DNA of 64,000 nt from an uncultured Alphaproteobacteria bacterium (lineage in GTDB: Bacteria > Pseudomonadota > Alphaproteobacteria > Puniceispirillales > Marisalimonadaceae): contig CAKZQZ010000017.1 of assembly GCA_937142855.1 (NCBI GenBank), forward strand, positions 1 through 64,000, in the 5' to 3' direction. The translations under genes were made by a program, and so were the position numbers. Shown in pieces: positions 59,150 through 63,279 of this stretch. The notes below the pieces were generated by a model. It saw only the letters and a program-made list of their open reading frames with translations, had not been told where the DNA came from and made no database searches. Position 1 is the first letter of the stretch; every line of letters starts with the position of its first letter.

Positions 59150-59224
59150 GCGGGCGTAGCTCAGTGGTAGAGCATCTCGTTGCCAACGAGAATGTCGAGA
59201 GTTCGAATCTCTTCGCCCGCTCCA
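59150..59224 (+). tRNA. tRNA-Gly(GCC), 3' CCA encoded
   Basis: Acceptor GCGGGCG/CGCCCGC, D arm GCTC-AGTGGTA-GAGC, anticodon stem TCTCG-ttGCCaa-CGAGA, T arm GAGAG-TTCGAAT-CTCTT, discriminator T then CCA. Confidence 0.97.
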
Positions 59225-59243
59225 AATATCTATTATAAACTAC

Positions 59244-60344
59244 TTAATTTATTTCTATTATATCGAAGGACACTTCATTATGTATGGAGTAGTTCTTTTG
59301 ATTTTGTACAAGATCTTTGTTTGCAATTAGAAAACCTAAATATTTGTTATACTTCGGAGACCATACAACTGAAGTTACTCTACCGTCTTCTTTACCTTCA
59401 TTAAATACGGGTAAATTATTGAAAAAAGGTGGGCGGGGAAGGATATCCAAATCAAACTTAACTTGGTAGATAGATTTATTAAAGCCCTTATCTCTTTGTT
59501 TTAACAAAGCTGATTTTCCTACAAAATCAAAGTCAACATCTAAACTACAAAACTTTCCTAATCCACAATCTTGTGGAAAGTTCTTATTTGTCATTTCATT
59601 ACCATAACTTAGAAGGTGATTTTCAACTCTTTCTATCATATTTGGACAGCCAACTCTTATGTTTAAATCCACGCCTTCTTTCATTATCAAATCCCATAAG
59701 ATGACCCCTGTTTGATTTTTAGAAAGTATAATTTCATAACCTGTTTGCTTACTAAAACCAGTTTTGGAAACTAAAACGTTGTCATTATTAAAAACATAGT
59801 TTTCAAACCTAAAATATTTTAATTTTTCAATTTCCTTACCAAAAACTTTGCACAAAAGTAGCTCTGACTTAGGTCCTTGGATGGCAATAGTTATTCTATC
59901 AGACTCAAAGACATCAGCATTAAAATTCATTGTGTGATTAATCGCAGAAACCCAGTTAAATAAGTCAGAGTCAGATAGTGAAATTAAAAAATGGTTTTCA
60001 CTCAAACAAAATACTACTGGGTCGTTTAATATGCCTCCTTCAAAGTTTACTATTGGCGAGTAATAAGCTCTACCAGGAATAATATTACTTAGGTCTCTAC
60101 AAAATAAATATTTTAGTAGGTCATGAGATTTTTTGCCTTTGATCTCTATTATTTTTTGGCAACACACATCCCATAACTGGACATGTTTAGTAAGATGTAA
60201 GTAATCATTTTTTAGGGATTTAAAAACAGTGGGTATTAATGTGTTATTATAAACACTATATTTTTTTACCCCAGCCTCATTATTCCTAGACGTAAAAGGT
60301 GTTTCCTTAATTCTGTTAGACGTAGAAAAAAATTCATTAGACAT
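59244..60344 (-). CDS. dmdA: DmdA-like protein (dimethylsulfoniopropionate demethylase clade of the GcvT/aminomethyltransferase family)
   Basis: 366 aa; ETPFTSRNNEAGVKKYSVYNNTLIPTVFKSLKNDYLHLTKHVQLWDV; CRDLSNIIPGRAYYSPIVN; GFSKQTGYEI; GCPNMIERVENHLLSYGN. Fits recalled DmdA rather than GcvT (RTGYTGEDGxE). Confidence 0.72.
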   Translation of the reverse strand: MSNEFFSTSNRIKETPFTSRNNEAGVKKYSVYNNTLIPTVFKSLKNDYLHLTKHVQLWDVCCQKIIEIKGKKSHDLLKYLFCRDLSNIIPGRAYYSPIVNFEGGILNDPVVFCLSENHFLISLSDSDLFNWVSAINHTMNFNADVFESDRITIAIQGPKSELLLCKVFGKEIEKLKYFRFENYVFNNDNVLVSKTGFSKQTGYEIILSKNQTGVILWDLIMKEGVDLNIRVGCPNMIERVENHLLSYGNEMTNKNFPQDCGLGKFCSLDVDFDFVGKSALLKQRDKGFNKSIYQVKFDLDILPRPPFFNNLPVFNEGKEDGRVTSVVWSPKYNKYLGFLIANKDLVQNQKNYSIHNEVSFDIIEIN

Positions 60345-60397
60345 TTTTTATACCCCCATATAAAAAACAATAACCTTAATCACTTTGGATATTTTTT

Positions 60398-61288
60398 ATG
60401 AAAAGTAAATTAAGAAAATCATTAGATGAAAAAAAATTTGTTTACACGGCAGAGACATCACCCCCAGACTCAGGAAGTAAAATCGATATTATTAACCAAG
60501 TTAAGTGTTTAAAAAATCTTGCTGATGCAATAAATGTTACTGATGGAGCAGGAGCTAATTCTCATATGTCAGCCTTGGCAACAGCCGCGGTTATTGCTGA
60601 AAACCATATTGAGCCTATATTACAATTTACAACAAGGGACCGTAATAGATTGGCTATTCAAGGAGATTTACTAGGTGGATGGGCATTAAATATCCCAAAT
60701 ATACTTTGCCTATATGGCGATGAAGTTAAAGGAGGCGATCAACCTGAAGCAAAAGAAGTTCGAGACCTTGATACTATAGGTTTACTAAAAACAGCTAATG
60801 ATATCAAAATTAATAAAACTTATCCCTCAGGTAGAAAGATAGCCAATGCCCCAGATTTTTTTATTGGAGGTGCAGACACACCTTTTAAAATAAAAGATGA
60901 TTTTGACGGAGCAAATTTATTTAAAAAAATTAAGGTTGGAGTTGAATTTTTTCAAACTCAATATGCTTTTGATGAGGTTATTCTTGAAAGATATATGGGA
61001 AAACTAAATCAGCTTGGTATCACAAGTAAAGCATATTTTATAGTTGGTTTAGGTATTATTAAATCTGCTAAAAGTGCACGTTGGATGAACGATAATTTAT
61101 TTGGGATAAGTATTCCTGAAAATATAATAAACAGGATTGAAAACTCTGATAATGAGAAAGAAGAAGGAACGAAAATTTGTATTGAATTGATTGAAAAATA
61201 TAAATCAATTGAAGGGGTGAGTGGTGTGCACTTAATGGGATATAAACAAGAGGAAGATATAGCTTCCGTTATTTCTCATTTCAAATAA
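60398..61288 (+). CDS. methylenetetrahydrofolate reductase-like protein
   Basis: FVYTAETSPPDSGSKIDIINQVKCLKNLADAINVTDGAGANSHMSALA; EPILQFTTRDRNRLAIQGDLLGGWALNIPNILCLYGD. Confidence 0.82.
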   Translation: MKSKLRKSLDEKKFVYTAETSPPDSGSKIDIINQVKCLKNLADAINVTDGAGANSHMSALATAAVIAENHIEPILQFTTRDRNRLAIQGDLLGGWALNIPNILCLYGDEVKGGDQPEAKEVRDLDTIGLLKTANDIKINKTYPSGRKIANAPDFFIGGADTPFKIKDDFDGANLFKKIKVGVEFFQTQYAFDEVILERYMGKLNQLGITSKAYFIVGLGIIKSAKSARWMNDNLFGISIPENIINRIENSDNEKEEGTKICIELIEKYKSIEGVSGVHLMGYKQEEDIASVISHFK

Positions 61289-61312
61289 TTCTAGTAATAT
61301 TGGAGATTAAAA

Positions 61313-62134
61313 TTGCAAATATCTCAAGAACTATATTCAAAGGCGCAAAAACTAGATAATGATCAACTCAGATCAATAATTAGATCAGAAAAGTTTAAGG
61401 GACAAACATCTGGGCTTTCTAAGAATTATTTGCAAACAAATCTTATTATTTTGGATAAAAAATATGCCTTAGATTTCATGATTTTTTGTCAAAGAAACCC
61501 TAAAGCTTGCCCGCTAGTTGGTGTTACTGACGTGGGAGATCCATTTTTCAGGACTTTAGGAAATGATGTAGATGTTAGGTCTGACGTTCCTTCATATAAC
61601 ATCTATAAAAATGGTAAGCTTTTTAAATTAGTTAATAATATAATTAATTTATGGAATGAGGATCTTGTGGCTTTTGCAATTGGTTGCTCATTTACATTTG
61701 AACACTCTCTTATCAAAAAGGGTTTTCAAATTGACCACATTGAAAATAACAAAGTGGTCCCAATGTATAAAACTAATATTAAAAACAAAGTTTCTGGGGC
61801 GTTTAAAGATACGATGGTGGTATCCATGAGAATTTTTAAAAAAAATCAAGTCAACGAAGTAATCAAAATTTGTAAATCATTTCATTGGGCACACGGGACA
61901 CCTATTCACGTTGGAAATCCAAAAGAGATTGGAATACTTGATATAAACAATCCTGAATGGGGAGATAAACCAAAAGCACTGTTAGAAGATGAAGAGTATG
62001 TCTTTTGGGCTTGTGGTGTTACACCACAAAATGCAATTTTAAGTTCCGATATCCCCTTTTGTATTTCTCATACCCCAGGTCACATGCTTATTACAGATGT
62101 CCCAGAAGATGCAGAGGTTCCTATTCTGCAGTAA
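61313..62134 (+). CDS. DUF1445 / D-glutamate cyclase-like putative hydro-lyase
   Basis: FCQRNPKACPLVGVTDVGDPFFRTLGNDVDVRSDVPSYNIYKNGKL; FAIGCSFTFEHSLIKKG; FCISHTPGHMLITDV; TTG start after GGAG. Confidence 0.85.
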   Translation: MQISQELYSKAQKLDNDQLRSIIRSEKFKGQTSGLSKNYLQTNLIILDKKYALDFMIFCQRNPKACPLVGVTDVGDPFFRTLGNDVDVRSDVPSYNIYKNGKLFKLVNNIINLWNEDLVAFAIGCSFTFEHSLIKKGFQIDHIENNKVVPMYKTNIKNKVSGAFKDTMVVSMRIFKKNQVNEVIKICKSFHWAHGTPIHVGNPKEIGILDINNPEWGDKPKALLEDEEYVFWACGVTPQNAILSSDIPFCISHTPGHMLITDVPEDAEVPILQ

Positions 62135-62136
62135 CT

Positions 62137-63279
62137 TTACTCTATAGACACCACTGATATTTTTTTTGCTGCTTTTTGAGCCTTGTCTAAGCTTGAAGCC
62201 AAGACTACTCCCATGCGCCTATAAGATTTTAAAGTTGGTTTACCAAAAATCCTGAAATCCACATTTTCATCTTCTAAAGCTTTTTCGATACCCTCTATAG
62301 TATAATTACCTGTTGCATTTTCTTCAGCAAGTATGACATGACTTGCTCCGGCCTGCATGAGTTTTATCTCAGGTAAAGGCATTCCTGTAAGCACTCTTGC
62401 GTGTATGTCAAATTGACTATAATTTTGAGTGAACATAGTTACCATACCAGTGTCATGAGGGCGGGGGCTTAATTCACTAAAGATAACACCACCTTTTTTA
62501 TCAACAAAAAATTCCACGCCAAAAATTCCTGATCCACCTAAGTCCAATACCATGGTTTTAGCAGCTTCTTGGGCTTTCTTTATCACTTCTTTTGAACATG
62601 CTGCAGGTTGCCAGCTATATTGATAATCTCCCCTTTTTTGAAAATGCCCGATTGGATCACAAAATGAGACCTTTCCTGACTTCTCTAAAATTGTTAATAA
62701 TGTTATTTCGTAATCAAAATCAATGAATTCTTCTACAATGACCCTCTTTCTGTTTCCCCTCATGCCGTCAATAGCAAATTTCCAGGATTTCCTTAGTTCT
62801 TCTTGAGAACTTGCATAACTTTGCCCTTTGCCCGATGAACTCATAACTGGTTTTACAGCTACCTTGGCACCTATTTTTTTAGCTTCTGATAGGAGCTCTT
62901 CTTCTGTTTCAGCATATGCAAACCTTGCCGTTGTTAATCCTAAACTTTTTGCTCTATCTCTAATTCTATCCCTATTCATAGTTAAGTTGACAGCCTTCGC
63001 AGAGGGTATAACAGTATACCCGTTAGTTTCCGCTTCCAACAAGACTTCTGTTTCAATCGCCTCAACTTCAGGAACAATGAAGTCAGGCTTATGTTTATTT
63101 ATAATTTCAAAAAGTTTTTCTTTATCAAGCATATTAAAAACTTCCGCCATATCACTAACCTGCATTGCTGGGGCATTTTCATAAGCATCACAAGTAATTA
63201 CATAGCAACCCATTCTTTTCAGACTAATGGTCAATTCTTTACCTAACTCTCCACTACCAAGTAATAAAATTTTTTTCAT
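62137..63279 (-). CDS. purT: formate-dependent phosphoribosylglycinamide formyltransferase
   Basis: LLLGSGELGKELTISLKRMGCYVITCDAYENAPAMQVSD; PVMSSSGKGQSYASS; ELSPRPHDTGMVTMFTQNYSQFDIHARVLTGMPLP. Confidence 0.96.
   Translation of the reverse strand: MKKILLLGSGELGKELTISLKRMGCYVITCDAYENAPAMQVSDMAEVFNMLDKEKLFEIINKHKPDFIVPEVEAIETEVLLEAETNGYTVIPSAKAVNLTMNRDRIRDRAKSLGLTTARFAYAETEEELLSEAKKIGAKVAVKPVMSSSGKGQSYASSQEELRKSWKFAIDGMRGNRKRVIVEEFIDFDYEITLLTILEKSGKVSFCDPIGHFQKRGDYQYSWQPAACSKEVIKKAQEAAKTMVLDLGGSGIFGVEFFVDKKGGVIFSELSPRPHDTGMVTMFTQNYSQFDIHARVLTGMPLPEIKLMQAGASHVILAEENATGNYTIEGIEKALEDENVDFRIFGKPTLKSYRRMGVVLASSLDKAQKAAKKISVVSIE

Follow-up and report, generated by a model that had tools for sequence, protein, structure and literature searches.

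A conserved divergent gene pair of low-GC SAR116 bacteria couples a DmdA-lineage protein with a MetF2-type methylenetetrahydrofolate reductase in a predicted demethylation and C1-oxidation unit

Our analysis of a low-GC SAR116 alphaproteobacterium suggests that two divergently oriented genes form a demethylation and C1-oxidation pair, in which a DmdA, most likely acting on DMSP, is joined to an oxidizing methylenetetrahydrofolate reductase (MTHFR) of the MetF2 type; we hold this explanation to be moderately probable. Within the window, i.e., the whole stretch of 64,000 nucleotides that was analyzed, the minus-strand gene at positions 59244 to 60344 (366 amino acids [aa]) encodes a GCV_T-fold protein of the DmdA lineage, a putative tetrahydrofolate (THF)-dependent DMSP demethylase, and the plus-strand gene at positions 60398 to 61288 (296 aa) encodes the MTHFR, a predicted oxidizer of methyl-THF. 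The two start codons are separated by a spacer of 53 bp (60345 to 60397). A third gene, encoding a PF07286 (DUF1445/D-glutamate cyclase family) protein (61313 to 62134, plus strand; 273 aa, TTG start), follows the MTHFR gene after 24 bp and is a facultative neighbor outside the conserved unit. All three reading frames are intact, and rederivation of the coordinates reproduced the genes and both gaps as originally predicted. The source genome (2.32 Mb, listed as 100% complete) belongs to the SAR116 order, with a GC content of 31 to 37% in 8-kb blocks, and its nearest named relatives are SAR116 single-cell genomes with ~82% identity in MTHFR. A tRNA-Gly(GCC) gene at 59150 to 59224 separates the 3' end of the dmdA-like gene from a sugar-aminotransferase-like gene.

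The minus-strand protein was classified from its score against the NCBI DmdA profile NF009133, its nearest solved structure, and a tree. It also matches Pfam GCV_T, and it scored 380 bits on NF009133 (E value, 9.5e-114), which is below the cutoff of 410 bits; this cutoff was passed by no DmdA-like member across the 58 genomes of the GTDB family. Other members of the class include true DmdAs at 414 to 698 bits and a group of paralogous AMTs at about 336 to 395 bits, so that the score alone is indecisive and the tree decides. When 21 paralogous AMTs served as the outgroup, the sequences of the family formed a clade (100/100) inside DmdA, separated from the paralogs with bootstrap/SH-aLRT support of 100/100 and sister to seven DmdAs, six of them from the same order (95/86); several of these order-mate DmdA genes adjoin a dmdB-like gene. 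The AU test retained placement as sister to all DmdA as an alternative (P = 0.052), and the family clade has a very long stem, with 1.16 changes per site. Identity was 40% to the DmdA of the Phaeobacter inhibens dmd cluster versus 31 to 34% to the AMT paralogs of that species, and the DmdA of P. ubique (3tfh) was the closest solved relative both by sequence and by fold search. An AlphaFold model built with 13 sequences was poor (pLDDT, 63.7), with 3tfh as its best PDB match at a TM score of only 0.58, and adds little. The phylogeny thus bears out the original assignment to DmdA: on this evidence the protein is a fast-evolving member of the DmdA lineage, and its substrate is likely to be DMSP. 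Identities as GcvT, as a sarcosine or DMG demethylase, or as LigM/DesA were ruled out by the profile scores and the tree.

Among 90 DmdA-conserved positions, 58 are kept in the family, including Q56, H50, the CPN-IER block, and N249, which separate DmdA from the AMT paralogs, and E204 is kept in the window protein. Other positions have changed: Y206, present in 51/51 DmdAs, is L, M, or I in 37 of 38 family members (I in the window protein), Q65 is lost across all family members, and W120 is lost in the genus of the window organism. At position 197, where DmdA has W or Y, the window protein has F. The W197 equivalent has been named as DMSP specific (PMC7487153; numbering mapped onto our alignment), but we dismissed its loss as an argument against DmdA, given that 21 of 51 DmdAs carry Tyr there. 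Compared with the DmdAs of P. ubique (3tfh) and P. inhibens (pPGA1_262), the window protein thus shares clade, length, and domain, but it differs in its identity of 36 to 41%, its score below the cutoff, its long stem, and the changes at Y206, Q65, and W120, and its gene does not stand in an operon with dmdB, dmdC, or dmdD.

The head-to-head arrangement is not due to chance. It was found in 37 of the 58 family genomes and is conserved in each of the three genera with the pair (g1, g2, and g4); in two genomes the dmdA-like gene stands alone and is either incomplete or located at the start of a contig, and none of the 58 has the MTHFR gene without the dmdA-like gene. A P value for this co-occurrence is inflated, because adjacent genes vanish together with missing contigs. 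The divergent gap, as taken from first-start reading frame calls, measures 49 to 53 bp for most members of the genus and 21 to 29 bp for the sister genera; in some congeners, alternative upstream starts shorten it on paper. Within the genus, a conserved TTTGGAYATT-like block lies 5' of the MTHFR ATG. As to the proposal of a shared promoter region, the spacing makes shared regulation of the pair plausible, but a promoter scan of the spacer found no sigma-70-like site and nothing above shuffled sequences.

The plus-strand protein is an MTHFR of the MetF2 type rather than a housekeeping MetF, a kinship assigned by genomic context. It matches PF02219 with 109 bits (gathering score, 24) but reaches only 68 bits on the MetF equivalog model TIGR00676, far below the cutoff of 294, and it represents the sole PF02219 protein in the family genomes carrying the pair (58 searched). 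E19, D108, and Q186 are invariant among 17 relatives, and E19 and D108 align to identical letters in human MTHFR; presumably, the three residues are the counterparts of the catalytic E28, D120, and Q183 of Escherichia coli MetF. Relatives with about 40 to 43% identity are found in Sinorhizobium, Paracoccus, and Azoarcus, in clusters with genes for trimethylamine-methyltransferase-family (MtgB-like), corrinoid, pterin-binding, and RACo proteins, and the demethylation-type cluster of Azoarcus also has purU. In a further genome of the class (G299), the neighbors of an MTHFR relative are a dmdB-like gene and genes for an AMT paralog and an enoyl-CoA hydratase. MetF2 of R. pomeroyi (SPO1862), encoded downstream of mtgD, has been proposed to oxidize methyl-H4F (PMC12478193). 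The window MTHFR is of the same paralogous type, tied to catabolic methyl-THF, as this protein and the MTHFR of the MtgBCD glycine-betaine cluster, but it lacks their adjoining DUF5981 (MTHFR C-terminal) gene, and its partner is DmdA-like instead of a corrinoid methyltransferase.

Homologs with 53% identity occur in SAR11 in the order dmdC-MTHFR-dmdB-mhpC-dmdA, so that the pairing put forward as biochemically sensible in the original prediction is both conserved in the family and found again within a dmd cluster. The gene order differs, however, and the SAR11 DmdA comes from a different DmdA subclade. The two branches that diverge first beside the SAR11 group in the MTHFR tree are not located in the dmd cluster, so SAR11 and SAR116 probably acquired the linkage to dmdA independently. 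Some SAR11 genomes keep MTHFR-dmdB-mhpC without dmdA at its usual place (L012, 8603 to 9301; L022, 8603 to 9304), and in Alphaproteobacteria of family f38 (L325 and L326), two MTHFR-like genes of this type lie in tandem, each falling in a different one of two subclades of the tree. By its published description, the SAR11 pair SAR11_1264 (metF) and SAR11_1265 (DmdA-related AMT) is likewise an MTHFR beside a THF methyltransferase, for which C1 oxidation has been proposed (Sun 2011, PMC3160333). In the AMT neighborhoods of two small, probably SAR11-type genomes, no MTHFR gene adjoined the paralogous AMT gene, and SAR11_1264/1265 was not recovered.

In the pathway that we envisage, the fast-evolving DmdA would methylate THF, with DMSP as the most likely methyl donor; the MetF2-type MTHFR would oxidize the resulting 5-methyl-THF to 5,10-methylene-THF, which would enter the folate-linked oxidation route to formate and CO2, so that the methyl group would be burned for energy by both enzymes together. 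The MMPA left over from DMSP could pass to the products of a dmdB-like gene (50% identity to SAR11) and a dmdC-like gene (36%), which are adjacent to each other on a different contig of the source genome. Their presence is in line with the report that the SAR116 subgroup LGC2 has dmdA, low-identity dmdB and dmdC, no DMSP lyase gene, and an exclusive demethylation route (PMC8547437). SAR11 cells have been shown to oxidize DMSP methyl groups to CO2 (PMC3160333). The placement in the DmdA clade, the conserved linkage, the sole MTHFR, the absence of MetH, and the dmdB/dmdC-like genes speak for such a C1-oxidation pair; the NF009133 scores below the cutoff, the stem of 1.16, the losses of Y206, Q65, and W120, and a core-MetE protein in the source genome speak against it.

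The direction of the MTHFR reaction bears on one competing explanation, in which an ordinary biosynthetic enzyme would reduce methylene-THF to methyl-THF and the DMSP methyl group, through a shared methyl-THF pool, would end in methionine. That the genome has no other MTHFR agrees with this, as does the core-MetE protein, a methionine-synthase-type PRK09121 match over the cutoff, which means that methyl-THF may also feed methionine synthesis there. However, the MetH B12 domain (PF02607) was found in 0 of the 58 family genomes, with positive controls detected, and PF02574 homocysteine methyltransferase occurs in the family only as a stand-alone protein of ~300 aa. Moreover, one relative (G040, 99% complete) has the pair without a PF01717 MetE-type protein and another (G004, 95% complete) has a PF01717 protein without MTHFR, so that the occurrence of the MTHFR does not parallel methionine synthesis. 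Together with the shortfall on the MetF equivalog model and the kinship with catabolic demethylation clusters, these patterns make a biosynthetic role rather improbable. The sole MTHFR, the lack of the MetH B12 domain, and the relative without MetE instead favor, as far as gene content can tell, oxidation of DmdA-derived methyl-THF, and the oxidative direction originally predicted is in keeping with both the lack of MetH and the kinship to MetF2.

A different methyl donor would leave the C1-oxidation pair in place but shift the DmdA-like enzyme to another sulfonium compound, betaine, or MMPA. The long stem, the loss of DmdA-invariant residues such as Y206 and Q65, and the position of every family member below the DmdA cutoff could all be read in this way, and a second demethylation was proposed for the DmdA-like AMT beside metF, with MMPA as the substrate of SAR11_1265 (Sun 2011, PMC3160333). 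Against this stand the 58 retained positions with their AMT-distinguishing residues, the dmdB/dmdC-like genes, and the dmdA-positive, lyase-negative LGC2 subgroup (PMC8547437), and we consider the shift possible but unlikely. The corresponding scenario, a neofunctionalized DmdA acting on a non-DMSP compound together with an oxidative MetF2, such that "dmdA" counts in SAR116 metagenomes would partly reflect another methyl-oxidation pathway, is similarly doubtful. It is very improbable that the minus-strand protein replaces the glycine-cleavage T protein. The source genome, although listed as 100% complete, has no canonical GcvT among its GCV_T matches, which are only three (a sarcosine-oxidase-like protein, the DmdA-like protein, and a weak YgfZ-looking match of 302 aa), but the DmdA-like protein scores 130 to 160 bits on GcvT models versus 380 on the DmdA model and is nested in the DmdA tree.

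The PF07286 gene had been suggested to be an accessory of the pair, and its distribution rules out membership in the unit: of the three genes, only dmdA and MTHFR recur together across the family, and the DUF1445 gene was confined to one genus, in which 11 of 40 genomes carry it, directly 3' of the MTHFR gene and nowhere else in those genomes. In the remaining congeners, purT follows MTHFR with no gene between, and in the sister genera the slot is taken by a gene for an unrelated HTH_65 methyltransferase. The nearest DUF1445 sequence (82.5% versus 75%) does not come from the closest genome by dmdA or MTHFR, which hints at loss and recombination. The protein matches PF07286 (formerly DUF1445, now named D-glutamate cyclase) with 187 bits and PRK05463, the NCBI "putative hydro-lyase," with 357 bits (cutoff, 324), and its match to the PF07286/UPF0317 structures 3db9 and 2pif covers nearly the full length. 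Elsewhere in bacteria, PF07286 genes lie beside those for the 5-oxoprolinase PxpA, a glutamate cyclase-domain protein, or TRAP/oxoprolinase-type proteins, in contrast to the metF2/purT context seen here; the role of the gene is probably in D-glutamate/5-oxoproline metabolism. PurT, a formate-dependent GAR transformylase (62137 to 63279), is a convergent neighbor of the pair genus-wide and not in the sister genera; a connection to C1 oxidation through formate is possible.

SAR116 dmdA, an oxidative MetF2, and the SAR11 metF-AMT pair (2011, PMC3160333) were each known separately; neither the dmdA-metF2 pair in divergent orientation nor the marked divergence of its DmdA was found in the literature searched. 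Low-GC SAR116 bacteria occur widely in the surface ocean, and DMSP degradation by demethylation only is reported for one subgroup. A dedicated dmdA-metF2 unit in cells that lack MetH points to the fate of the methyl carbon, which would be oxidation for energy rather than methionine synthesis, and the divergence of the low-GC SAR116 DmdA calls for caution in assuming that DMSP is its substrate.
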